Below are positions 17,160 to 46,472 of a stretch of DNA of 64,000 nt, one piece after another. The notes below the pieces were generated by a model. The model did no database searches. It was not told the DNA's origin and saw nothing but the letters and a program-made list of their open reading frames with translations. Numbering within the stretch: the first letter of the stretch is position 1; the number at the start of each line of letters is the position of its first letter. The DNA comes from Roseofilum reptotaenium CS-1145 (GTDB lineage Bacteria > Cyanobacteriota > Cyanobacteriia > Cyanobacteriales > Desertifilaceae): assembly GCF_028330985.1 (NCBI RefSeq), contig NZ_JAQMUE010000075.1, forward strand, positions 62,001 to 126,000, in the 5' to 3' direction. A program made the position numbers and the translations under genes.

Positions 17160-18797
17160 TTAAGGAATATAAGTCCCCATCAATTTCCCTTCTGCATCAT
17201 ATAATTCTAACGCAATACCTGCCGTTCGACTAATATTTTCCAGAGCATTTTGAACACTTTGCACATGCTCATCAACCGAAGTAAACGTCGTTAAATCTCC
17301 ACGACCTCTAGCCTGAATAAGTGTTTGACGAACCCTTTTGACATAATCAGACGTTAGAGTAACTTTCAATAAATTCTGACTGACTGTATATTCACAGATT
17401 TTCGGTAGACCTGCACAAGTTTGATTTAAATCATTTCGTGCTTGTTCCAACCGGTTTGCTTGCTGTAGTTTTTGCTCTGCTGACTGTAACGATCCTTGAT
17501 AAACATTGACCAGGGGAGATGCTTTACTATAATAAAAACTATCGCTTGGAACTTGCTGTAAATAATTCACCGCTTGACTCCAATGACCCACTGCTAGGGC
17601 TAATTCATTACTTTGTTCAAATTCCTTCGCTTTATCTGCTAACGTTAGGGCTTGATTATAAGTATCACTAGCAATTTCTTCCTTTAAGAGTCTCTCTCGG
17701 CTGGCTTGAAACTGGGTTTCATAGACATCTAAAAGCTGATTAGCCTCGACTTTTGCTTGAGTCCCCTGGGGAATATTTTTCAAGCCATTAATCGCTGTAT
17801 TCCAACTGCCATAGGCCTGTTGCCAATTTTCTAAGGATTGAGCAATTCCTTGACGAGTTTTAGCCAGATCTGCGGCCTGTTTTGCCCGTTCTAAATTCTG
17901 TTGCGCTTGTTGTTCAACTTGGATACGATTTTGAATCGCTTCTAGATTTTGTTCATATTCTTTTAGCTTGGTTTTGACTAAGGGATAAATGGTTTCAGCC
18001 GTAGAAACTTGTTGTAAATTTTTTACAGATTCCAGCCAAAGTTGCTCGACTGCTTTCCAAGTTTCCAGAGGATGGGGAGGGTTCAAACTTAGTTGGGCTG
18101 CTTCACTGGCTTGGGAAAAGGCGCTAACGATCCGATTGAGATTATCGGTATGCACTGTATTACGTCGCATGAATTCTTGGGCTTGGGCAAAATAAGGAGA
18201 CCAAAAGGGAATTCGTTCGACTTGAGAAATCGCTTCTTGTAACTGTTGTTGCGCTTGTACCAATCTTTGGGGGTTATCCGTAGTTTCTGAGGTTTGGATC
18301 GCAACTTGGCCGAGGCGTTGGGCAGTTTCTAGGGGAATGCAAGTGGCGATCGCACAGGGACGAGTCATCATATACATCACTCCTCCTGCGATCGCCAGTC
18401 CCAAAAGCCCTGCAATTCCCCAACCCCAAGTAAATAAGCGAGAGGGCGGTTGAGCTGGGGTAAGGGACTGGGATGGAGTCGCTTCTAGCAGAGATTGATC
18501 CTCTAGATTAAAAGACTGGGAAAAGTAGGGGCGTTTTTGTCCTGCTACCCGCACAAAAATTCGTCCTTGGCGACCGATCAACGGTCGATACTTTCCAATA
18601 TCTTGTTGCAGTTGGGCAAAGATCCGTTGGGTATCCGGTTGAATTTTGGCAGTATGTTGGGCTAACACCATTAAGCTGCCGTTTTGTAGTAAACATTGAA
18701 CCCGAAAGGCTGGCCCATGGGGAAGTTTACGATTGAGGTTTTTTTGGAGATGCTGGGTGAGAACTTGGAGTGGGCTACACTCCTGCTTAGTCGCCAT
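17160..18797 (-). CDS. Cyanobacterial membrane protein with long coiled-coil/TPR-like periplasmic region
   Basis: A 545-aa protein of no known function. Residues 1-115 form a soluble N-terminal domain with a beta-rich pattern. A single transmembrane segment follows (about 124-145, W-G-W-G-I-A-G-L-L-G-L-A-I-A-G-G), then some 300 residues of helical, Gln/Ala/Leu-rich repeats (Q-A-Q-Q-Q-L-Q-E-A; L-E-N-W-Q-Q-A; L-A-V-G-H-W-S-Q-A-V) that look like tetratricopeptide or coiled-coil helices. The C-terminal 90 residues are a compact domain ending L-E-L-Y-D-A-E-G-K-L-M-G-T-Y-I-P. Two Cys in the domain near 460 could form a disulphide. A scaffold role is guesswork. It is convergent with the Uma2 gene. 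Confidence 0.7.
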   Translation of the reverse strand: MATKQECSPLQVLTQHLQKNLNRKLPHGPAFRVQCLLQNGSLMVLAQHTAKIQPDTQRIFAQLQQDIGKYRPLIGRQGRIFVRVAGQKRPYFSQSFNLEDQSLLEATPSQSLTPAQPPSRLFTWGWGIAGLLGLAIAGGVMYMMTRPCAIATCIPLETAQRLGQVAIQTSETTDNPQRLVQAQQQLQEAISQVERIPFWSPYFAQAQEFMRRNTVHTDNLNRIVSAFSQASEAAQLSLNPPHPLETWKAVEQLWLESVKNLQQVSTAETIYPLVKTKLKEYEQNLEAIQNRIQVEQQAQQNLERAKQAADLAKTRQGIAQSLENWQQAYGSWNTAINGLKNIPQGTQAKVEANQLLDVYETQFQASRERLLKEEIASDTYNQALTLADKAKEFEQSNELALAVGHWSQAVNYLQQVPSDSFYYSKASPLVNVYQGSLQSAEQKLQQANRLEQARNDLNQTCAGLPKICEYTVSQNLLKVTLTSDYVKRVRQTLIQARGRGDLTTFTSVDEHVQSVQNALENISRTAGIALELYDAEGKLMGTYIP

Positions 18798-18918
18798 AGT
18801 CAGCAGGAAGGGTTAAAGAAGGAGTGGACAAAACAATGTATGGCTATTGTAACCAAAAGTTATAGCGCAACGTGCTGGTCATGGGTAATGGGATATTTTC
18901 CCCATCTCTATACTTAAA

Positions 18919-19821
18919 TTAATCACAACAGACGCGGCGTAATCCTAACCATCCTCCTAAACCGCCGACCAATGCACCAAAAACTAGCAGTAGGAAAAAT
19001 AGGGTTGTGGTATCAGTATAAAGATCCCAATAGGAATCCTGAAAGTGGGAGAGCAGAGGAATAACGGATAACTCTTGGGTAAATAACTTCAGGGATATCT
19101 GCTCAAAGCCTTGAACGATGCTCCAGGCGATCGCCCCCCCAACACCCCCTAAAATTACTCCTTGCATCATAAATGGTAAGCGAATCCACCAGCGAGAGGC
19201 TCCCACCAAGTGCATAATCTCAATTTCTCGGCGACGGGAGACCACAATTAACTCAATGGTAGTCGTCATAACGGCGATCGCGCTCACCATTAACACCATC
19301 GTCACCCCCAAACTCAACACCCGCAACCCCCGGTTAATCGTCGATAGTATATCTAACGCGGCTTCCCCATAAATCACCTCATTGACTCCTGATAACTGCT
19401 CTAACTGCGGAACCAAAGTCCTCAGTGCCTCTGGAGATCGAGCCTTTACCCTCAACTCATCCACCAAAGGATTGGTTGGTAAAATCTCGGTAGCGACCTC
19501 TGGAGAATTTAAACCCAACTCTGTCAGCAAACCCATCCAAGCTTCCTCCTTGGCGATCGCTTCCACCTCGACCACTCCCGGCAGATCCTGTACCTTCGCC
19601 ACCAATGGGTTCGCGCTCCAATCCGCATCTAAATATACCGATACCTCCAACTGGCTCCCAAACTGATTCACCAAACCCTCCAACTGCCAAGCCACCTGCC
19701 AACTCAACCCAAACAAAAATAACAATACCGTCACCGTACTAATGGCCGCCCAATTCATCCATCCCCCACGGCGCAGCCCTAACTGCACCTCACTCCACAG
19801 ATAGCCCAACTGAACCCCCAT
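18919..19821 (-). CDS. ftsX: Cell-division ABC-transporter permease FtsX
   Basis: A 300-aa protein with FtsX topology: one N-terminal membrane helix (about 22-45), a large extracytoplasmic domain (50-165, with L-E-V-S-V-Y-L-D and V-D-E-L-R-V-K), then three helices in the second half around the cytoplasmic R-R-R-E-I-E-I-M-H-L-V-G-A-S-R-W-W-I-R motif. FtsX works with the ATPase FtsE to control peptidoglycan hydrolases at division. No ftsE is next to it, which is common in cyanobacteria, where the two genes are often apart. Confidence 0.9.
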   Translation of the reverse strand: MGVQLGYLWSEVQLGLRRGGWMNWAAISTVTVLLFLFGLSWQVAWQLEGLVNQFGSQLEVSVYLDADWSANPLVAKVQDLPGVVEVEAIAKEEAWMGLLTELGLNSPEVATEILPTNPLVDELRVKARSPEALRTLVPQLEQLSGVNEVIYGEAALDILSTINRGLRVLSLGVTMVLMVSAIAVMTTTIELIVVSRRREIEIMHLVGASRWWIRLPFMMQGVILGGVGGAIAWSIVQGFEQISLKLFTQELSVIPLLSHFQDSYWDLYTDTTTLFFLLLVFGALVGGLGGWLGLRRVCCD

Positions 19822-20092
19822 CAGAAAATCCTCATTTAAATAGCGATCGCTTTGAAAATTAGCATAAACCTGCTATCTTGTGACCCAGAAACATCAACCC
19901 TCTATTCTGAACCTAATTGCCTGCATCCCACAACAGCCCAAAAAATCAGCAGTTTTCCGGAAAGCCACGAAAATTTTGTGTTGATGGGGGAGAACCAAGC
20001 ATACAATTAGGAATCAGGCCACAGCGCTCCCCTGGGTTTTCTGGGAGTTGTCATCTAAAATAAACAAGTCCTAACGGTGAGGTAGTGAACAA

Positions 20093-32544: not shown

Positions 32545-32656
32545 CTAATAAAAACAAAATAATTTACTCTGAATAAAGATCGAAATTTCACTAAAAATTA
32601 AGTTGATAGACAAAGAGTGTTATAATTTTCTGTTAGAGACTATTGAAAAGTTTGAT

Positions 32657-35600
32657 ATGTCTACATTCAAAACTTCTAATGAAGATCCACTTAATCAGAT
32701 TGTTCTAGCGATTCAAGGACAGCAGTTTCAGGAAGCGGCGAACCTTTGCCGGCAGGTATTACAACAGAATCCTCAAAATGGAAAAGTGTGGCATCTGTTT
32801 GGGGTAACCTACTATAGCGCAGGAGAGATAAAACAGGCGATCGCCGCTTATGAAAATGCCCTGAAAATTGACCCTCATCAACCCCAAACCCATAATAATC
32901 TGGCCATTGCCTTAGCTCAAAGCGATCGCCCTACGGAAGCACTCAAGCATTATCAACAGGCGATCGCCCTTGCACCCGACTATACCGAAAGTTACTATAA
33001 TCTCGCCAAAACTTACAAGACCCTGGGGAATCTAGATTTAGCTCTTCAGAATTATCAACAGGCGCTGCATCTTAATCCTGACTATAGCCAAGCGCGGCAA
33101 AATTTGGGCAATCTCTATTTAGAACAGGGAGAATATGACCGAGCTATTGTGGAGTTAAAACAGGTCATTGCCCAAGTTCGAGATCGGGCCATTATTCACC
33201 ATAGTCTTGCCTTCTGTTACCATCAAAAAAATGAACGAAAAGAGGCTATTTCCCATTACCAAAAGGCGCTAGAACTAAATCCCCAATATATCTCCATCTA
33301 TGCCAATCTCGCCTCTCTACTCCATCAGGAAAACCAGGTCGAGCAAGCCATTCCCTACTATAAAACCGCCTTAAGCCATGCTCCAAATTCGCCCAAACTG
33401 CACCACGATCTGGCCGTTGCTCTGGGCGCTCAGAAACAACTCGAAGCGGCAACCGATCACTATTATCGATCGCTAGAACTCGAACCTAACTCACCAGAGG
33501 CGCATAATAATTTAGGGGTAGCCCTGAGTCAACAGGAAAAATTTGAAGAAGCGATCGCCGAATATCATCGAGCGCTAGAACTTAATCCCCATTATCCAGA
33601 TGCCTATAATAATCTCGCCGTTGCTCTGGATAAAATAGGTGAATATGATGGGGCGATCGCTGCTTATCAAACCTGTATTTCCCTGAAACCTGACTATGCT
33701 GAAGCCCACACTAACCTCGGAATAGCACTCCTACTCGCTGGAGAGTTGAGCAACGGTTGGGCAGAATATGAATGGCGTTATCAATGGCAAACCGCCAGTA
33801 ATCATAGACCTGTTTATCAACCCCGATGGAATGGAGATCCATTTATAGGACGAACTTTACTGTTGTATTGTGAACAAGGTTTTGGAGACTGCATCCAGTT
33901 TTTACGCTATTTACCTCTCGTGCAAGAGCGTGGAGGAAAAATAATCCTGGAATGTCCTCGACTGCTGATAGATTTGTTTCAAATCTTTATAGAAGAACAT
34001 GCCTCAGATCCTGAGAAAAAGGTAAGGTTAGTAGCACGGGATCGACCTTTACCCAATTATCATATCTGGGCCCCGTTAATGAGTTTGCCCTATATTTTAG
34101 GAACCACTTTAGATACGATTCCGGCATCTATTCCCTATCTTCGCGCTCCAGTTAGGGCAGATTCAGAAAATTCATCATCTTCTTACCCAGAGATGGATCG
34201 ACTCGTTCCTACGGTAGATCGGGCTATCCGAAAATCGGCTCATTTTAAGGTGGGGTTAGCCTGGGGCGGAAATCCCAATCATGGTAACGATTGCCAACGC
34301 TCCTGTCAATTCACCGATCTTCTGCCCCTGTTAGACATAGAAGGCATTGACTTTTACAGCTTGCAAAAAGGCGATCGCGCCCAAGAACTTGCAGGAGTAG
34401 AAAACATAACCAATCTTGACCCCATTATCCAAGACTTTGCCGATACCGCCACCCTAATTAACCAACTCGACTTAATCATCACTGTGGATACCTCCCTGGT
34501 GCATCTCGCGGGAGCCATGGGCAAACCCACATGGCTATTACTCTCCTTTGTCCCCGACTGGCGCTGGATGCTCGATCGCGAGGATAGCCCCTGGTATCCC
34601 ACCGTCCGTCTCTTCCGGCAACCTGCACGCGGAGACTGGCATTCTGTAATTACTGCGGTTAAAACCCAATTAATCCCATCCATCTCCCCATCTCCTAATC
34701 CTTCCATCTCCCCATCTCCCCCATCCCCCCATCTCCCCATCCCCCGAACCGGAATAGGTATCACTTGGCAACTGGGCAACCACACTGGATGGGGAATATA
34801 CGGACTCAACCTAGCCCTACAACTGGTGAAAAACCCAGAAACATTCCCTCATTTACTGGTTCCCCCTGGAAATATCCAGAACTTGCACCCCTTGCATCAA
34901 GTCCTTTTGCATCCGGTATTTGAGGAGCAAAAAATCCTTCAGCGTTTCTTAAACCAGTCCTTGGGTAAGGCACTAAAATCTGATTTTCCTATCTTTCATG
35001 GTTTAGGTCATGGGTTTGGAAAGTCACCCTTAATGGAACATGTGTACGGTCATTCTTCAGTAGGGATTGTATTTATTGAAGATACTCATCTGGAGCAAAA
35101 GGCGATCGCCAACGCCAAAACCTACGATCGCCTAATTGCCGGTTCCAGTTGGAACACCGAAGTTCTGACCAGTGCTGGAATTCCCCAAGTAGAAACTATT
35201 TTACAAGGCATCGATCCCACCCTATTTCACCCTGCCCCTAAGCTAGGAATTTGGGGTCAAGACCGCTTCGTAATTTTTGCTGGGGGTAAACTCGAATACC
35301 GCAAAGGACAAGACCTGATCATTGCCGCCTTCAAAGCCTTTCACCACCGCCATCCAGACGTTTTGCTGGTCACCGCTTGGCATAATGCTTGGCCCAGTTG
35401 GATGGTCGGATTGGACACGACTGGGAATGTGGAAGGATTACCTCAAATTAGTCAAGATGGCGTGTTACAGATTATGCCCTGGTTGCAGAAAAATGGCATC
35501 CCGGCTGAGGCGGCGATCGCCCTCGGTCCCACTCCCAACCACCTCATTCCCCAAATTCTCCGAGAAGCCGACGTAGCTATCTTTACGAGTCGTGCAGAAG

Positions 35601-35905
35601 GAGGAACCAACTTAGCAGCCATGGAATGTTTAGCCTGCGGTATTCCCACCCTTCTTTCTGCCAATACCGGCCATTTAGACTTACTCAACCGAGGTGCAGG
35701 TTATCCCTTAAAAACCCAATATCCCGTCGCTTCTCATCCCTATTTCCAAGGGACAGAAGGCTGGGGAAACTCGGATATTGAAGAAATTTTAGAAACCTTA
35801 GAATGGATTTACCACAACCGCAAGCAAGCCAAAAAACAGGGAAAACAATTTGCCAAGATTATGCAAACCTTGACCTGGGAACGACAAATCCAGCAACTGT
35901 TATAG
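32657..35905 (+). CDS. TPR protein fused to two glycosyltransferase-like domains
   Basis: About 1082 aa from ATG 32657. Residues 10-380 are a run of about eleven tetratricopeptide repeats (A-L-K-I-D-P-H-Q-P-Q-T-H-N-N-L-A; repeated N-L-G and A-I-A-Y/E-Y). Residues 385-675 look like a GT41/GT9-type catalytic region (V-G-L-A-W-G-G-N-P-N-H, then D-T-S-L-V-H-L-A-G-A-M-G-K-P-T-W-L-L-L). A Ser/Pro linker coded by repeated CATCTCCC units (34678-34745) leads to a GT4-like domain (residues about 710-1080: G-G-K-L-E-Y-R-K-G-Q-D, then F-T-S-R-A-E-G-G-T-N-L-A-A-M-E-C-L-A-C-G-I-P). Such fusions are found in filamentous cyanobacteria and should modify proteins or glycans. No signal peptide. The start chosen skips a TTG 18 codons upstream. 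Confidence 0.85.
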   Translation: MSTFKTSNEDPLNQIVLAIQGQQFQEAANLCRQVLQQNPQNGKVWHLFGVTYYSAGEIKQAIAAYENALKIDPHQPQTHNNLAIALAQSDRPTEALKHYQQAIALAPDYTESYYNLAKTYKTLGNLDLALQNYQQALHLNPDYSQARQNLGNLYLEQGEYDRAIVELKQVIAQVRDRAIIHHSLAFCYHQKNERKEAISHYQKALELNPQYISIYANLASLLHQENQVEQAIPYYKTALSHAPNSPKLHHDLAVALGAQKQLEAATDHYYRSLELEPNSPEAHNNLGVALSQQEKFEEAIAEYHRALELNPHYPDAYNNLAVALDKIGEYDGAIAAYQTCISLKPDYAEAHTNLGIALLLAGELSNGWAEYEWRYQWQTASNHRPVYQPRWNGDPFIGRTLLLYCEQGFGDCIQFLRYLPLVQERGGKIILECPRLLIDLFQIFIEEHASDPEKKVRLVARDRPLPNYHIWAPLMSLPYILGTTLDTIPASIPYLRAPVRADSENSSSSYPEMDRLVPTVDRAIRKSAHFKVGLAWGGNPNHGNDCQRSCQFTDLLPLLDIEGIDFYSLQKGDRAQELAGVENITNLDPIIQDFADTATLINQLDLIITVDTSLVHLAGAMGKPTWLLLSFVPDWRWMLDREDSPWYPTVRLFRQPARGDWHSVITAVKTQLIPSISPSPNPSISPSPPSPHLPIPRTGIGITWQLGNHTGWGIYGLNLALQLVKNPETFPHLLVPPGNIQNLHPLHQVLLHPVFEEQKILQRFLNQSLGKALKSDFPIFHGLGHGFGKSPLMEHVYGHSSVGIVFIEDTHLEQKAIANAKTYDRLIAGSSWNTEVLTSAGIPQVETILQGIDPTLFHPAPKLGIWGQDRFVIFAGGKLEYRKGQDLIIAAFKAFHHRHPDVLLVTAWHNAWPSWMVGLDTTGNVEGLPQISQDGVLQIMPWLQKNGIPAEAAIALGPTPNHLIPQILREADVAIFTSRAEGGTNLAAMECLACGIPTLLSANTGHLDLLNRGAGYPLKTQYPVASHPYFQGTEGWGNSDIEEILETLEWIYHNRKQAKKQGKQFAKIMQTLTWERQIQQLL

Positions 35906-35922
35906 CGCATTGCACTGTCATG

Positions 35923-36010
35923 TATAGTCATTTTAATTAAGATTGATACACCAAGATTTATCTACAACAACGGTATCTGTAGGGGCGAACGGCCGTTCGC
36001 CCCTACAACC
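35923..36010. repeat. Left flanking repeat of the A/B module, with a 30-bp perfect palindrome
   Basis: It begins TATAGTCATTTTAATTAAG (35923-35941), then AACGGTATCTGTAGGGGC and a perfect 30-bp palindrome at 35978-36007. A related copy in the same orientation lies at 40950-41038, after the last gene of the module. A partial copy of the first motif is at 37310-37326. Confidence 0.65.
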
Positions 36011-36132
36011 ATGTCCCATCCTTAATTACAACAACTATATATCTAGCCAACATCAATAAAAACAATTGTATCGAAGTTAATGACATTCGCGTTGAAACCC
36101 TTGTACCCAAGCAAGACCCAATAAATAAAAAA

Positions 36133-37308
36133 ATGAAATCACATGAATCTTTTAGCAATACTCTCGATCGAGCCAATGGAATCCACCTAGAAATATGGGA
36201 ACCAAGTTTGATAGTATTACCTATCCCAGAAAGAACGCTACCGGAAAGTATTTCTTTTGGATTATGGCTCAAGTTGACTAATCAGACAGTAAAACCTTGG
36301 AAAATTGATGCCGATAAAATAATCATTCCAGAGCTGATAACATCTGATGGTAAGATCTTAGAAAGAGGATTAAATACTGATCATCAGAAAAATGAAGCAA
36401 ATACACCCTATAAAGGCGATAACTTAGTCAATAGAGTAGTCTATTCTATTTCAAGTTTAATTGACGATATTGCCAGAAGAGGGATTTCGTGGGTGAGTCC
36501 CAAAACAGCAATATTTATATCCATTGCTGCTAAAGTTTGTTGGGAAAAAGATTTACTACAGTTACAGTTGTTAACGAATAGATGTCAAGCTTTAAACAGC
36601 TCGTGTTTTGATGCCCTCAAGCTAGGAAATTATCAACTCAGATTCATATATGAATCAAGTAGCAATCAAACAAAATATCAGCCTAAAGAAGGGATTTTAC
36701 AGTTGAGAAATGTCAAACAACGAAAAGGCGATCGCTTAACCACTCCTTTTGTCAACCTACGCTTGGTTGAAACCAAACCCAATGATAAAGCAATAGAAGT
36801 AGATGGTATTCGCTTTGAAACTACATTGCCAGAAACAGTAATCCGCTTACCAAAGAAGGACAATGGTATAGAAACATCTGTACCAATTGGTATTCGGATT
36901 ACAAATAATAGTAATACTGACTTTTATTTTAATTTTTATAACACACTAATTCCTGAACTTATTACTTTAAATGGGGAAATCATCAAGAAGGATTACACCA
37001 GCGATTTCTTAAAAAGGATGTTACTATCCGATATACTTTTAGCCGTACAAGGCAAAAGTATTGATTTCTTTCCTAATGCCAAACTATTGTGTAAAAAGAA
37101 TGGCAAATTAAAACTCAAAATAGCTGCTGGAGATGGAGGTGATTGGAGTTTTAACAATCTTAAAGCAGGTAGATATTGGCTGCGATTAACATATAAGAAT
37201 AAATCTGTAGAAACAAGAGTAGAGGATAGAAATGCAAAAAAGATTATCTTATTCAAAAAGCTTTGGAGAGGAATGGTGTTAGGGTCTCTTGTAGCACTGG
37301 ATTTATAA
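36133..37308 (+). CDS. A1: two-domain protein of unknown family, 5' end probably lost
   Basis: A 391-aa protein made of two copies of one domain. Domain 2 starts at E222 with E-V-D-G-I-R-F-E-T, followed by I-G-I-R-I-T-N-N-S, then F-N-F-Y-N-T-L-I-P-E-L-I, the G-D-G-G-D-W motif at 333-338 and G-R-Y-W-L-R-L-T-Y; domain 1 has the matching L-W-L-K-L-T-N-Q, I-I-I-P-E-L-I and G-N-Y-Q-L-R-F-I-Y. The pattern of short strands suggests a beta sandwich. The same frame is open upstream and encodes I-E-V-N-D-I-R-V-E-T-L-V-P at 36070-36108, the missing first strand of domain 1, but no ATG, GTG or TTG precedes it, so 36133 is only the first usable start. No signal peptide. Paralogue of A2. AT-rich. Function unknown. 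Confidence 0.65.
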   Translation: MKSHESFSNTLDRANGIHLEIWEPSLIVLPIPERTLPESISFGLWLKLTNQTVKPWKIDADKIIIPELITSDGKILERGLNTDHQKNEANTPYKGDNLVNRVVYSISSLIDDIARRGISWVSPKTAIFISIAAKVCWEKDLLQLQLLTNRCQALNSSCFDALKLGNYQLRFIYESSSNQTKYQPKEGILQLRNVKQRKGDRLTTPFVNLRLVETKPNDKAIEVDGIRFETTLPETVIRLPKKDNGIETSVPIGIRITNNSNTDFYFNFYNTLIPELITLNGEIIKKDYTSDFLKRMLLSDILLAVQGKSIDFFPNAKLLCKKNGKLKLKIAAGDGGDWSFNNLKAGRYWLRLTYKNKSVETRVEDRNAKKIILFKKLWRGMVLGSLVALDL

Positions 37309-37359
37309 ATATAGTCATTTTCAATTTCACTAATTTTTGGATTTTTCAACTTGTCAATT

Positions 37360-37602
37360 ATGTCTATAGCAACTAAAAACGTTCTCTTGAAAACACATTC
37401 ACTATTTTGGCTAGCCACTAGCTTTTTGATTAGTATCACAAGCCAGCCTGTTCGTGCATTTACTCTTACACCTGGCCGTGGCTGGTTTGGATTGGGTCAA
37501 GGAGCTAGTGTTCGTTACCTCCCAAGAGATACAGGAAGCGACGAAATCTTTACTGTAGGAACCTGGCTAGATCCCAAATTAGTCACAGAAATCAATCAGT
37601 AA
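37360..37602 (+). CDS. B1: short secreted protein of unknown function
   Basis: An 80-aa protein with a clear signal peptide (basic start, then F-W-L-A-T-S-F-L-I-S-I-T, cleavage probably after V-R-A) and a mature part of about 48 residues starting F-T-L-T-P-G-R-G-W-F-G-L-G-Q. The long B2 protein also begins its mature part with A-F-S-I-T-P, so the two may be related at the N-terminus, but the resemblance stops there. It may be a truncated copy of a longer B gene. It follows A1 by 51 bp. Confidence 0.5.
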   Translation: MSIATKNVLLKTHSLFWLATSFLISITSQPVRAFTLTPGRGWFGLGQGASVRYLPRDTGSDEIFTVGTWLDPKLVTEINQ

Positions 37603-37741
37603 TATTACGGTATTGCGGTAAAAAAGCAGAGAATACACTGATGCTTTAGGGAGAGTGAATCCATTCTTGAATTCAGTAAAAATACTATGGTTTGGATCGG
37701 CTAATACAGGTAGCATCTAGCCAACATGACATGGAAACAAT

Positions 37742-37837
37742 TTGATCGAAGTTGATGGGATTCGCTTTCAAACAATTATGCCAAACCATCAACCAGTCAT
37801 TATTGGAGATCCAGTTCCTAGTTTGTTGAATCTTTAA
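37742..37837 (+). pseudogene. Detached first-strand fragment of A2
   Basis: In the same frame as A2 this reads I-E-V-D-G-I-R-F-Q-T-I-M-P-N-H-Q-P, the domain-1 start of the A family, then hits TAA at 37835 and TAG soon after, 31 nt before the A2 ATG. The upstream DNA shares TCTAGCCAACAT (37716-37727) with the same position before A1 (36042-36053), so both copies descend from one gene. Confidence 0.65.
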
Positions 37838-37867
37838 TTTAACTAGACGTTCGAGAAGAGAAAAATT

Positions 37868-39133
37868 ATGCTCTTAGAGCTTTTTAACAACTTATTTTTT
37901 AAAGAAAAGGGGGTTAACATGGGAATTGGGGGGCCAGAATTAATAGCATTGCCAATTCCCAAAAATGCCTCTGATGCCAGTATCGAAATCGAGATTACTG
38001 TTTATGTAATTAATAACACCCTCGAATCGGTTCGTCTTCATCCAAATGACGCTCTGATGCCCGAACTGATAACCTCAAAGGGTCAAACATTACAGCCAGA
38101 AGTAGCTATAGAAGAATCTTTGAAGAATCTAGAGAAAATTCAAGCTATTAGGAGGAGATCGCTCGGTGGCAGATTTCCATTGACTCGTTGGCTCTCAAAT
38201 TTAGTTTTTAGGTTAAGACGACCTCCCAAGATAATAAATCTTGACGATAGCTTAATCGAACCTGGAGAGGGCAAAAAAACTTCTCCAATTGTCAGGCTAC
38301 TTTGGTATAATAAAAAACTACAGCTAAAATTTATCAAACAATTTAGTTACTTACCAGTCAGTTTCAAGCTAAACGACAGTTGGTGTTTTCACGATCTGCA
38401 AGCAGATACCTATCAATTGAGGTTTACTAGAAAGAGTTCAAGCGATCGCACCTCAGCAGATTTGAAACCAGAAACGAAAACAGAGGCGATCGCTCCAGCT
38501 TTGGCAACTCAATTCCTAAGTCTGAGCTTGCAAGAGCCAGTAGGGCCTGACAACAGTGCGGTAGAAGTAGACGGGATTCGCTTTGAAACTCTAGTGCCGC
38601 AACCAAGGGTAATAGTTCCGAGGTCGCAACCAAAGGTAAGAGTTCGGAATCCGCACTTAGACCCCTATACTCTCGTAGAGATTGGTATTCGTATTAGCAA
38701 CAACACCTCCAGTTGTTTTCGGTTCAACTTATTTGCCAGCTTGATTCCACAACTGATAGGAACGGATGGTCAACCAATAGAGGCTGCCTATGGTTGTAGC
38801 TTAACTATAATACCAAAAGAATCAGATTTTCCTATAGTTAAGCCGGGAGAGAGTCTGACATTTTTTCCCAAGATAGCACAACTGTTTTGGGTGAAGGGAG
38901 AGCTTTTTTGCCTGAGCATTCCAGCCGGAGATGGAGGTGGTTGGGTTTTTGGATCGCTTTCTTTAGGAACCTATCAAATTAATTTTATATACAAAAATCA
39001 AGATAGGACAGTAGAAATACTAGATAAAGAAGGGAGAAATGCGAAATTACTGGAAGACATCTGGGTAGGGATGGTGTTTACTCCATCAATCACTTTTAGT
39101 TTAGTTAGGTCTGAAACTGAAAAAAGTTTCTAG
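37868..39133 (+). CDS. A2: paralogue of A1, two-domain protein of unknown family
   Basis: A 421-aa protein built like A1. Domain 1 has I-E-I-E-I-T-V-Y-V-I-N-N-T, L-M-P-E-L-I-T-S-K-G and W-C-F-H-D-L-Q-A-D-T-Y-Q-L-R-F. Domain 2 starts at E233 (E-V-D-G-I-R-F-E-T-L-V-P), with I-G-I-R-I-S-N-N-T, F-A-S-L-I-P-Q-L-I-G-T-D-G, G-D-G-G-G-W at 354-359 and a shared end R-N-A-K followed by W-x-G-M-V. A basic insert (about 95-125, many Arg and Pro) separates strands in domain 1. No signal peptide. The conserved GDGG turn could be a ligand or metal site; that is a guess. B2 follows after 53 bp. No known family recognised. Confidence 0.65.
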   Translation: MLLELFNNLFFKEKGVNMGIGGPELIALPIPKNASDASIEIEITVYVINNTLESVRLHPNDALMPELITSKGQTLQPEVAIEESLKNLEKIQAIRRRSLGGRFPLTRWLSNLVFRLRRPPKIINLDDSLIEPGEGKKTSPIVRLLWYNKKLQLKFIKQFSYLPVSFKLNDSWCFHDLQADTYQLRFTRKSSSDRTSADLKPETKTEAIAPALATQFLSLSLQEPVGPDNSAVEVDGIRFETLVPQPRVIVPRSQPKVRVRNPHLDPYTLVEIGIRISNNTSSCFRFNLFASLIPQLIGTDGQPIEAAYGCSLTIIPKESDFPIVKPGESLTFFPKIAQLFWVKGELFCLSIPAGDGGGWVFGSLSLGTYQINFIYKNQDRTVEILDKEGRNAKLLEDIWVGMVFTPSITFSLVRSETEKSF

Positions 39134-39186
39134 TCCATAAAAAAGTAGTCACTATTTTGTTGAGAAATAACATAGGAGCGATAAAA

Positions 39187-40929
39187 GTGCAAAAGCAAAG
39201 TACATTCATACTTTTTCTGACAACAACTCTCCTGGGAATATTGCCAACTAGGTCTAGCTTGGCATTCTCGATTACTCCTCCTCCCTCAGACTTCTACAGA
39301 TACACAAAGCCTTACTTTGTTGATATTGACAAGGGGATATGGGGTTATACTCAATTAGACGCATGGCCAGAGTCGGACCCCCGGCGGTATTTATCGAGAG
39401 GACAGGTTATTGAAATCAAACAAGGGGGAACCACAGGATTACTGAACTTACTAGAAAGTGAGTTTCCCAACTGGAACTTTGAGGAAACGGGAAACTTACA
39501 AGGTAGTTTTGATATTCAGGAATATTACTCATGTGCTCCAAACCCTCTAGGATATGAGTGGTGTGGTCGTCACACATTGAATAGTGTCGGAGCTCATATT
39601 AGATTGAATTATAACCCCCAACCATTCTCTTTCGATCCCCAAGGTGATAATGTTCACTGGATTCAAAGGGTTATCGCTACCTTTTCACCATACAAAACAG
39701 TACCACCCTCCGGATATTTAGATTTCATCGATATTCCTCCTGGTCAGCAAAATCCTTACTACGATACTCAAGGAAATGCCGAATCAGACTATTTTAGAGA
39801 TTCTCCAGTATACAACTTTCCACATATAGAGAGTTTCTTTTATGCAGAAACTTACCTTGTTGAGGAAATCGCACCAAAGAAAGTAAAAATTTACAATGGT
39901 GTTAGATGGGGATGGGAAAACAAGATATCTCCCATTAAACTTGCAGAAAGTTTTTCTGAGAGCCTAAGTTCTGGTACAGAAGTAGATGACTTCAGCGTAG
40001 ATGGACTAACTCCAGGAACACCATATATGGCTTGGACTAACAATAGCCTTCCTTCAAACCAATGCAACCCAAACACATATCTGAGGGGAGACAGTCGGGA
40101 TGGTTCTTGGCTTTATGATGAAAATAGTAGTCCTGAAGGAGATGGTTTTGCTTCAGCAATTTGGGGGACTGTTCCTAGTAGTGGTACTGTTGATTTATCT
40201 GTCGGGGTGGCATCGGGCGGTCGCCGTGGAGAAGATGAAGGTAACTACGAGCTTTTTGTCGCTTTATTAGATTCTCAAGACTTACCATCTGAAATTTACC
40301 CCATGAATAACGGCAGTAATATTGCACTCGGCGGTAGCGGTGGTGGTGGTATTATAGTCGGCGGTAGCGGCGGTGGTGGCATCATAGTCGGCGGTAGCGG
40401 CGGCGGTGGAGTCGATTTAGATACACCGGGTCGCACTCAACAAAATCCCATACTTCCTAGTAGCATCGACTCTGATGGCTGGCAACACTTCTCTAACGTT
40501 CCCGGTTGTCGCTGGTATGACCCACCCATAGAGAAGGGATTTGAATTTGTCGCCACCGATGACACCCTATTTACGGAAATTCTAGATTTTCCTGTCGGTC
40601 AAGACGATTTGTTTACAGTTATGGTTGACGACCTAATTCTGGGAGAGTTTAGTCCCGGAGATAGAGTCGATTTTCTTTCCTTACTCGGTTCAGGTGTTTC
40701 CCGGTTTAAAGTAACTGATATTGATTATTTCATCGGTAATACAGAAGAAACCTATTTTCCAATTCAACTGGCATTTGATAAAAATGTGGGCAGTTTTAAG
40801 ATGCGCCCGATAGTGACTGAAGAAGAAACGAAAAAGCAGAAAGTCCCAGAATCCAATTCGGTGTGGGGTTTAATTGGGTTGGGTGCTTTTGGAGTCTGGA
40901 AATTTATCGGTTTGAGGAATCGGAAGTAG
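39187..40929 (+). CDS. B2: secreted protein with Gly-rich repeats and PEP-CTERM-like sorting tail
   Basis: A 580-aa protein starting at GTG 39187, which has GGAG eight nt upstream; the longer frame from TTG 39157 has none. A signal peptide (L-F-L-T-T-T-L-L-G-I-L-P, cleavage near S-L-A) starts the protein. The mature part has a unique N-terminal region with four Cys in pairs, a segment like cyanobacterial extracellular beta domains, a Gly-rich repeat G-G-S-G-G-G-G-I-I-V (three times, about 377-408), then a second beta region. The C-terminus is V-P-E-S-N-S-V-W-G-L-I-G-L-G-A-F-G-V-W followed by R-N-R-K, a PEP-CTERM tail with Ser for the second Pro. Such tails are cut by exosortase and attach proteins to surface polysaccharide. 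Confidence 0.7.
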   Translation: MQKQSTFILFLTTTLLGILPTRSSLAFSITPPPSDFYRYTKPYFVDIDKGIWGYTQLDAWPESDPRRYLSRGQVIEIKQGGTTGLLNLLESEFPNWNFEETGNLQGSFDIQEYYSCAPNPLGYEWCGRHTLNSVGAHIRLNYNPQPFSFDPQGDNVHWIQRVIATFSPYKTVPPSGYLDFIDIPPGQQNPYYDTQGNAESDYFRDSPVYNFPHIESFFYAETYLVEEIAPKKVKIYNGVRWGWENKISPIKLAESFSESLSSGTEVDDFSVDGLTPGTPYMAWTNNSLPSNQCNPNTYLRGDSRDGSWLYDENSSPEGDGFASAIWGTVPSSGTVDLSVGVASGGRRGEDEGNYELFVALLDSQDLPSEIYPMNNGSNIALGGSGGGGIIVGGSGGGGIIVGGSGGGGVDLDTPGRTQQNPILPSSIDSDGWQHFSNVPGCRWYDPPIEKGFEFVATDDTLFTEILDFPVGQDDLFTVMVDDLILGEFSPGDRVDFLSLLGSGVSRFKVTDIDYFIGNTEETYFPIQLAFDKNVGSFKMRPIVTEEETKKQKVPESNSVWGLIGLGAFGVWKFIGLRNRK

Positions 40930-40949: not shown

Positions 40950-41038
40950 TATAGTCATTTTCATTAAGGGCGATCGATCGTCATAGATCGCCAACGGTGG
41001 TATCTGTAGGAGCAAAAAATATGCAAGCCCCTACAACC
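40950..41038. repeat. Right flanking repeat of the A/B module
   Basis: TATAGTCATTTTCATTAAG (40950-40968), then AACGGTGGTATCTGTAGG and a degenerate palindrome whose arms are GTAGGAGC and GCCCCTAC. It is related, in the same orientation, to 35923-36010; the pair brackets 5 kb of A/B genes. Confidence 0.6.
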
Positions 41039-41096
41039 CTAATTTGCACGGCAAAAGAGGTAAAACGACGAAGATATTCCTTTCGAGGATACTCTC

Positions 41097-42437
41097 ATGG
41101 ACAGCATGAAAAATAAGGACTCCAGCGATAAAAAAGGTTTTCCCAGTCCCGCGCGAAGCACTATTGTTTACACCCTATTATTTACCCTTAGTATCATTAT
41201 CATTAATCCTTGGGGAAGCAGTCGGGGAGAGATCTGGACTCAACCCAAATGTGCTGTACTGGCTCTGATTGCGATCTGCAATCTCTACCTACTGTGGAAA
41301 AGTGGGGAAACTCTACACATCCCCAAAAGCTGGTTTACCTCTAAACTTCTCTGGGAAATATTTCTGTTGATCGGATTCATTTCTACTCTCCTGAGTCCGT
41401 TTCCCATTCGATCGCTATTCGGTCAAGATCAGATGGGAGATGGTTGGCTCTACTGGTTGCTGATCGCAGCTTTCACTCTCAGTAATACCCTGGTTTTAAA
41501 ACGATATCCACAACTATTGCCCGCTCAACTCTACGGCTTTCTCATCGGTGGCATTCTTCTGGCTTTGAGTACCTTTCCCCAGTTGATTGACTGGCGTATT
41601 GATTACACGGCAACCACCGGACAATTACTGCGAGATCATATCCTCGTCAGCACTATTTTTCAGAATCATCAACCCATCGGTTTCTACTCCCATCGCGGCC
41701 ATGCTGCATTTGTGTTGGCAGCCCTTGGCGTGATGGCGGTTGCTTGCAGACAGCTCAGATGGGTATCGTTGCCAACAACCGTGACGATAATCATTCCGAT
41801 CGCGATCGCCCTATTTTTGGCCAATACTCGGATGGCTCTTGTTGCTTTCATCTTTGGCATTTTATACTTGTCAGGAAGGAAATACTATCGACGACTAATT
41901 CCCCTTATTTTGGTGGTCATACTGATGATTGGGGTCATGACTACCACCAGACAAATTTCAGGTTTGTCTGGGATTAAACAAATGACTTCAGACCGAATGT
42001 ACCTGTGGGAGTTAGCCACTCGTGGGATCGGCAAACGCCCTTTATTTGGCTGGGGTTTCAATGGTTTCGGCATTGCTTATCCCTATATCCGATCGCCAAA
42101 AGACACGCCCAATGTCGTCCGCTTGGGTCATTTAAGTTACGATGTAGTGAGTGAAAATGGCAGCCTGCGTACATTACCTTTGATTACCTATAAAGCTCAT
42201 AATCTCATTTTGGATACGATTTTATCCGTTGGCATTTTGGGAATGCTCTCTTATACGGCATTGTGGGGATATGGTATTTTCCTGGTTGTCCGATCGCCAA
42301 ACGGGAAACTGTTGGCAGTGGCGATCGCCTATTGGGTTTTCACTTTAACCTGGTTTGAATGCGCTCAATTTACCCATATAGCTTGCTGGACTCTATCTTT
42401 AGGCATAAATACAAGCAGTCAACCTATAGAAGAGTAA
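41097..42437 (+). CDS. O-antigen ligase/polymerase-like membrane protein
   Basis: A 446-aa protein with about eleven hydrophobic segments and a long outer loop in the second half that includes R-M-Y-L-W-E-L-A-T-R-G-I-G-K-R-P-L-F-G-W-G-F-N-G-F, the W-x-x-G/A-x4-PLxGWG pattern of Wzy/WaaL-type proteins, and a later H-N-L-I-L-D. These join lipid-linked glycans to acceptors or to each other. The acceptor here is unknown; cyanobacterial members are scattered through exopolysaccharide regions. GAGG lies eight nt before the ATG. It is convergent with smc, two bases apart. Confidence 0.8.
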   Translation: MDSMKNKDSSDKKGFPSPARSTIVYTLLFTLSIIIINPWGSSRGEIWTQPKCAVLALIAICNLYLLWKSGETLHIPKSWFTSKLLWEIFLLIGFISTLLSPFPIRSLFGQDQMGDGWLYWLLIAAFTLSNTLVLKRYPQLLPAQLYGFLIGGILLALSTFPQLIDWRIDYTATTGQLLRDHILVSTIFQNHQPIGFYSHRGHAAFVLAALGVMAVACRQLRWVSLPTTVTIIIPIAIALFLANTRMALVAFIFGILYLSGRKYYRRLIPLILVVILMIGVMTTTRQISGLSGIKQMTSDRMYLWELATRGIGKRPLFGWGFNGFGIAYPYIRSPKDTPNVVRLGHLSYDVVSENGSLRTLPLITYKAHNLILDTILSVGILGMLSYTALWGYGIFLVVRSPNGKLLAVAIAYWVFTLTWFECAQFTHIACWTLSLGINTSSQPIEE

Positions 42438-46023: not shown

Positions 46024-46472
46024 AGGATTGAGTGTTTAGACGGATTGAGGTTACTTCAATAAGAGTAGCGTAGGATTGACGAGAATGGATAATGAAGGCT
46101 CACCCATCCATTGATCGATTGGCTCTAAGGGCGATCGCGTGGAGATTTAAACCGAGTTTCTCTCAGGAGCTTGGATCGGGTTCTCAAGGTAGCCACAAAC
46201 CTGGTTTCTTTGTTGGTTGCGATCGCCAGATCTCCTCAATGATTCACTCTAGTGCAATTAGGGGACACAGGGGGAGTTTGCCTATTGGCTAGCGCAAAGC
46301 GCTATCTCTTAATTCTCTTTTTGTAGTATTATTTTTTACTTAAATTGCCAAATTAGAAGGAACAACTGAAGAGATTGAAAAGCATTGACCCTCTCTTTCC
46401 TGCAACTTAGGAAAAGGGAGGATCAACAAGAGTTACAGGATCGGGCAAATTGCCCGTTGTTCCCAAGCTAGA
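46024..46472. other. Intergenic stretch between smc and pgk
   Basis: It holds the smc upstream region, a small TAGCGC/GCGCTA hairpin near 46289-46303 of the dispersed TATAGCGC family, and a CGGGCAA/TGCCCG hairpin near 46443-46457, possibly the end of the pgk transcript. Short frames here are not protein-like. Confidence 0.35.

Follow-up and report, generated by a model that had tools for sequence, protein, structure and literature searches.

Two described systems are among the closest to the locus reported here. The first is that of the PglL/TfpO/PglS-type O-oligosaccharyltransferases: their family, Pfam PF04932 (Wzy_C), includes lipopolysaccharide (LPS) ligases as well as protein O-oligosaccharyltransferases, and candidates for the latter are found beside their target, 21 of 31 adjoining pilin genes, an adjacency itself used as an argument (accessible part of PMC3643930). 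The second is PEP-CTERM/exosortase sorting (TIGR02595 / PF09721), whose PEP-CTERM proteins are believed to stabilise exopolysaccharide-cell surface contact (accessible part of PMC12188702). Here we analyse a 64,000-nucleotide stretch of Roseofilum reptotaenium CS-1145 (contig NZ_JAQMUE010000075.1, positions 62,001 to 126,000; hereafter ‘the window’), in which each of two genes of a family we call A (A1 and A2) precedes a same-strand gene of a second family, B (B1 and B2), with a membrane-protein gene, C, downstream of B2 on the same strand; the set thus runs beyond position 40929, where a preliminary description of the stretch had ended it. We show that this is one copy of a conserved cyanobacterial cassette of the form (A1-n - B)n - C. 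Our preferred reading, to which we give slightly less than an even chance, is that C glycosylates B around exosortase processing, with A as the specific envelope partner of B; the arrangement suggests a dedicated ‘sugar-coating’ route for one particular surface protein.

Set beside PglL/TfpO/PglS enzymes and their pilins, the locus is alike in joining a Wzy_C-superfamily membrane enzyme to an exported protein encoded next to it on the same strand, and in that invariant Arg, Arg and His residues of C can be equated, by eye, with residues named in the accessible part of PMC3643930; it is unlike them in that C is without the PglL_A motif, the neighbouring protein is of PEP-CTERM type rather than a pilin, and extra A genes are present. 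If a PglL-type gene is to be recognised by its place beside a protein substrate, then C lies beside B, on the same strand, with B as substrate only a candidate. Exosortase sorting is matched by the signal peptide and sorting tail of B and by an exosortase in the genome; the differences here are a B N-terminal domain (N-domain) without a named family, an exosortase encoded elsewhere in the genome, and a Wzy_C protein following B. No description of such a cassette was found in the literature searched, which mostly omits subscription papers; B and C are each members of known superfamilies, with A and the three-gene unit apparently undescribed. It is, we think, possible, although we hold it with rather less than even confidence, that the whole constitutes an undescribed, self-contained surface-glycoprotein system of cyanobacteria, comprising an exosortase-sorted B, a dedicated en-bloc glycosyltransferase C and an Ig-like (immunoglobulin-like) A family that diversifies with B as pairs, several pairs being served by one C.

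The cassette emerges from a sample of 388 genomes, from 149 genera, drawn from the window's order (a draw, not the whole order) and searched with a profile built from 23 A domains. A is present in 71 of the 388 genomes and 34 of the 149 genera, often in several copies; a phylum-wide draw of 386 genomes holds it in 17, the window's order accounting for 16 of these and another part of the class for one. We read 90 neighbourhoods, the window included, covering 63 genomes and 29 genera among the matches listed rather than all 71 A genomes; several of these stretches stop at contig ends, so that an absent B or C may be an artefact. They contain 151 A open reading frames (ORFs) whose domain match spans over 100 columns, 21 A ORFs lacking such a match being left out, as were, from the B counts, two ORFs matching both A and B profiles. 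B lies directly after A on the same strand in 80 of the 151, at gaps of -88 to 167 bp (measured between stop-bounded frames, not to the start codon); the next gene is another A within 300 bp in 30 and further off in 7, and 6 reach the end of the stretch. Of 93 B ORFs, 86 have their nearest A upstream, on the same strand, and 7 have it downstream. B is found in 59 of the 90 A loci and, by its own separate profile, in 52 of the 388 genomes and 25 of the 149 genera; A and B occur together in 43 genomes vs 9.5 expected, an excess for which hypergeometric p-values overstate the evidence because the genomes are related. The preliminary description had made much depend on A and B co-occurring elsewhere, and their adjacency and co-occurrence do lie far beyond chance; the question it raised, whether a B always follows, has a negative answer, 31 of the 90 A loci being without one.

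Clustering of the remaining neighbours places C in the lead, with 37 ORFs in 13 genera, the next family reaching 6 genera. By profile, C is present in 44 of the 59 loci with B vs 2 of the 31 without, some matches being fragments and short contigs possibly hiding further copies. It shares the strand of its A and B in 46 of 46 loci. In 41 of 44 a B comes immediately before it; as exceptions, an A intervenes in L035, pieces of B and C share one frame in L093, and L118 leads with C; each array has one C, as in the A-B-A-A-B-A-B-C of L125. Among the 388 genomes, 50 have a C match at E up to 1e-80 and 38 have one above 560 bits, 34 of these with A and 35 with B. To speak of a duplicated two-gene module, as had been done before, is thus incomplete: of B1 just a remnant is left, and the third gene belongs to the conserved unit. 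That the three genes hitchhike as mere neighbours, with no joint function, strikes us as very improbable: it would accommodate the 28 of 151 A ORFs that have neither A nor B after them despite more than 2 kb of room, but many genera preserve the order and strand, and the co-occurrence is far above chance.

A and B are also inherited in pairs. Across 68 A-B units from 37 genomes, the distances of A and of the adjacent B are correlated (Spearman 0.37, a value reached by none of 500 within-genome shuffles, maximum 0.32), and the nearest cross-genome relatives of A and of B fall in the same unit in 42 of the 68 cases (200 within-genome shuffles: mean 16.7, maximum 28). The pairs are thus inherited as units; co-inheritance alone does not imply contact. 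In 35 near-complete three-gene loci (452 pairs), C proteins of different genera share a median 55% identity, and the A domain and the B N-domain 33% each, C being the best conserved of the three cassette genes, as expected of an enzyme with diverse substrates.

Working along B2 from its N-terminus, we see a signal peptide, the conserved N-domain, a PPC-like middle domain, Gly/Ser repeats and a PEP-CTERM-like tail (VPESNSVWGLIGLGAFGVWKFIGLRNRK). Against the NCBIfam PEP_CTERM model (TIGR02595, cut-off 16) B2 scores 16.6 bits with neighbouring residues counted and 14.7 alone, passing only in the whole-genome search where those residues were included; a plain hmmscan of B2 listed nothing. The tail remarked upon in the preliminary description is present, then, with a borderline score. 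Within the family, 68 of 95 B ORFs have a tail of 60 amino acids (aa) or more, and in 51 of these 68 a regular expression recovers one of PEP-CTERM type. An exosortase (PF09721) is found in 26 of the 27 B genomes tested, with one match in the window's genome, and is absent also from genome G009; together with the signal peptide and tail, this upholds the earlier view of a surface-related pair. Some B linkers are nearly pure Ser/Thr/Pro (up to 1.00 of 30 consecutive residues). One B protein (L037:4367-6007) has a von Willebrand A domain after its N-domain.

C of the window matches PF04932 at 37.8 bits (cut-off 31.7) and has about ten membrane spans by hydropathy; the 26 C proteins scanned all match PF04932 with E up to 1. 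No variation is seen among 26 C proteins at R245, R300 or H368 (numbered as in the C of the window). Its sole solved relative by sequence is the WaaL-type ligase 7tpg (E 0.015), in which HAHN aligns to KAHN of C; the tool's alignment to this structure covered only the region of R245 and H368. Four C proteins of about 1000 aa carry a long C-terminal extension (L083:668-3655, L036:3603-6653, L109:14450-17359 and L118:11016-14030), in three of which it gives a weak, sub-cut-off match to a pectate-lyase/epimerase-like domain. Where relatives of C occur without A or B (seven distinct loci read, genomes G045, G171, G200, G212 and G345 being left out), a different exported protein lies alongside, by eye, in four: L191, L192, L193 and L195, the last with a truncated C. 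As to a link between C and its target, these neighbours are suggestive only. The relatives in L191 (Nostoc sp. PCC 7524) and L192 (Anabaena cylindrica PCC 7122) are plasmid-borne, and the small exported-looking protein directly upstream of C is alike in both. In G000:C98, some 5 kb separate another Wzy_C protein (40970-41413) from a strong PEP-CTERM match (46264-46341) of the same genome.

The main rival to our reading starts from the same enzyme: C would be the polymerase or ligase of a strain-specific surface polysaccharide, which B binds or anchors at the outer membrane without itself being glycosylated by C. Both the breadth of PF04932, taking in O-antigen ligases as well as protein glycosyltransferases, and the supposed role of PEP-CTERM proteins at the exopolysaccharide-surface contact (accessible part of PMC12188702) are compatible with this, as are the sub-cut-off pectate-lyase/epimerase-like matches and the gene upstream of the cassette (window 32603-35905), whose product combines TPR repeats with a glycosyltransferase group 1 domain. 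Three further Wzy_C proteins are encoded in the genome of the window, however, and the cassette-free relatives of C stand beside another exported protein in the four loci named above; we consider this alternative unlikely, if well short of negligible.

The four domain copies of A1 and A2, each of about 170-210 residues, all match one another by BLASTP (35% identity and E 2e-35 between the second domains, E 1e-14 between the first domains, E 3e-4 to 5e-8 for first-second pairs). The paralogous two-domain layout given in the preliminary description is confirmed in real ORFs, with the motifs EVDGIRFET, ITNN/ISNN, LIPELI/LIPQLI, GDGGxW, RNAK and WRGMV/WVGMV, and the family is indeed unrecognised: scanned singly, A1, A2, B1 and B2 pass no curated Pfam or NCBIfam cut-off. 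BsuPI (PF12690) is matched by 2 of 108 A members (best E 0.0036) and Chagasin I42 (PF09394) by 8 of 108 (best E 0.0017), all under cut-off, and neither appears among the matches of A1 or A2 with E up to 1. The structure prediction proposed earlier gives a model of the second A2 domain with a predicted local distance difference test (pLDDT) score of 93.8; the A domain is confidently predicted to be an Ig-like sandwich, with the AsaP1 propeptide, RbmA and BsuPI as nearest folds, all weak matches and no clear known family. RbmA, a biofilm matrix protein, lies near the tool's noise band and is not listed in the sequence profile search. The BsuPI intracellular proteinase inhibitor and the AsaP1 propeptide may share an Ig-like beta sandwich with A, are among the best structural matches and correspond to weak profile matches; unlike them, A has tandem domains and the GDGGxW and WxGxV-TPFVEF motifs, no significant sequence match, and a partner that is not a known protease. 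A secreted enzyme-inhibitor pair, in which A would be protease-inhibitor- or propeptide-like and B a peptidase or a protection against one, is a reading that we regard as improbable. As the putative envelope partner of B, A may have an inhibitor-like or chaperone-like function.

The earlier picture of A as simply cytoplasmic has to be given up for the family: an in-frame signal/transmembrane (TM)-like leader precedes 50 of the 151 A ORFs (of leaders with shuffled residues, 19% clear the TM threshold as well), A1 and A2 themselves showing none. In L096:4723-5496 and L141:9986-10774 a B-type signal peptide stands directly ahead of an A domain in one open frame, which suggests that exchange has occurred between the two kinds of gene and that A is exported.

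A cytoplasmic A would suit polymorphic recognition or toxin-immunity, with B a variable surface or toxic protein and the arrayed A copies its immunity proteins. The A arrays, orphan A genes, B remnants and fast divergence would all fit, as would the low GC content of A genes, which is general (under flank GC in 78 of 85 loci). In the window, GC per kb is 35-42% across 36-40 kb vs 45% in the next kb and in the window as a whole, so that the stretch is AT-rich, as first described. Yet A lies upstream of B, export-type leaders precede 50 of the 151 A ORFs, B has an anchoring tail with no toxin domain found, PADLOC gives no match and PHROGs just one weak match, to C, at E up to 0.1; C, moreover, would be left unexplained. 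We judge this reading decidedly improbable.

Returning to glycosylation of B by C, we envisage the following course. B would be made with a Sec signal peptide, cross the inner membrane and stay anchored in it through the PEP-CTERM helix at its C-terminus. As a multi-spanning member of the WaaL/PglL (Wzy_C) superfamily, C may then act at the periplasmic side to move a lipid-linked glycan onto B, most likely onto Ser/Thr of its low-complexity linker, much as pilin O-oligosaccharyltransferases do with an adjacent pilin; alternatively, C could link B to a surface polysaccharide. Exosortase would next cut the tail, B ending as a glycosylated surface or matrix protein. A, for its part, would be a small protein of Ig-like fold, exported in some family members and specific for the neighbouring B, serving as folding, delivery or matrix partner, with one C probably serving several A-B pairs. 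Directly shown by the analysis are the families, the gene order and co-occurrence, the joint inheritance of A and B, the signal and tail features, the predicted fold of A and the conserved residues of C; the action of C on B, its nature as protein glycosylation and the role given to A are what we infer from these.

Saying this, a number of observations weigh against such a scheme. Concerning C, PglL_A (PF15864) is found in none of the 26 C proteins at E up to 1; its acceptor cannot be read from sequence, since simple comparison does not separate WaaL from PglL (accessible part of PMC3643930); C occurs without A in 13 genomes; and its relatives in L196, L201 and L202 have no exported neighbour. 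Concerning B, the linker of B2 is of Gly/Ser type, unlike a mucin (S/T/P no more than 0.40 of 30 residues), no fold was found for the N-domain, and B occurs in 9 genomes that lack A, six of these through weak matches (E above 1e-8). Exosortase is present also in 14 of 19 genomes without the cassette; tail-less B proteins occur in two related exosortase-free genomes (L046, L047), yet genomes with an exosortase have them too (L080 of genome G113 is one case), so the match between lost tail and absent exosortase is weak. As for A, 101 of the 151 ORFs, A1 and A2 included, are without a recognised leader, and shuffled leaders pass the TM threshold at the rate given above; to these we add the lone A ORFs and the A loci without B, and that the A-B pairing could come from linkage alone.

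The cassette bears on the fate of PEP-CTERM proteins after exosortase cutting and on their possible linkage to glycan; as it ties one PEP-CTERM-type protein to one Wzy_C enzyme, the glycan question becomes testable by a single deletion. It also adds two protein families, A and B, without a Pfam or NCBIfam match above cut-off.

Table 1. Features of the cassette and its surroundings (window coordinates)
Feature	Position	Strand	Description
Dispersed palindromic repeat	35979..36006	.	20 genome sites at <=3 mismatches; not part of the system
Extra A-domain N-terminal fragment	36070..36132	+	IEVNDIRVETLVP...; in the A1 frame, 5' of the A1 ATG
A1	36133..37308	+	391 aa; two A domains (profile matches 36169-36768, 36796-37305)
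B1 remnant	37351..37602	+	83 codons: signal peptide and first B residues
Degenerate A-domain start	37735..37840	+	IEVDGIRFQTIMP...; ended early by a stop
A2	37868..39133	+	421 aa; two A domains (profile matches 37904-38530, 38564-39106)
B2	39157..40929	+	590 aa from TTG; GTG at 39187 may be the start
B2 sorting tail, PEP-CTERM-like	40843..40926	+	VPES, hydrophobic stretch, RNRK
C	41097..42437	+	446 aa; Wzy_C / O-antigen-ligase superfamily membrane protein, third cassette gene

The source genome of the window comprises 5.67 Mb in 113 contigs; a scan of genome contigs found ‘Cyanobacteria bacterium UBA2566’ as its only relative, with 97% identity over A2. Of the two secreted B proteins first described as alternating with A, B1 is a remnant, whose full-length counterpart, of 614 codons, lies downstream of the A1 orthologue in L034; the nearest relative, G001 (L033), likewise has just a B fragment at the B1 place. 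The fragment ahead of A1 was recognised from frame translation and a direct-repeat family (D1), and the stretch matching it falls within the A1 frame in both L034 and L033. Flanking repeats do exist as noted before, in the form of a 72-nt pair (71% identity) and the tabulated palindrome; they are ordinary dispersed palindromes, not specific to the module. In L034, a piece at 17404-19882 on the far side of a four-pair A-B array resembles, by eye, the end of the neighbouring SMC gene; it adjoins a ribulose-phosphate epimerase gene, a layout that would fit insertion or copying of the array next to SMC.

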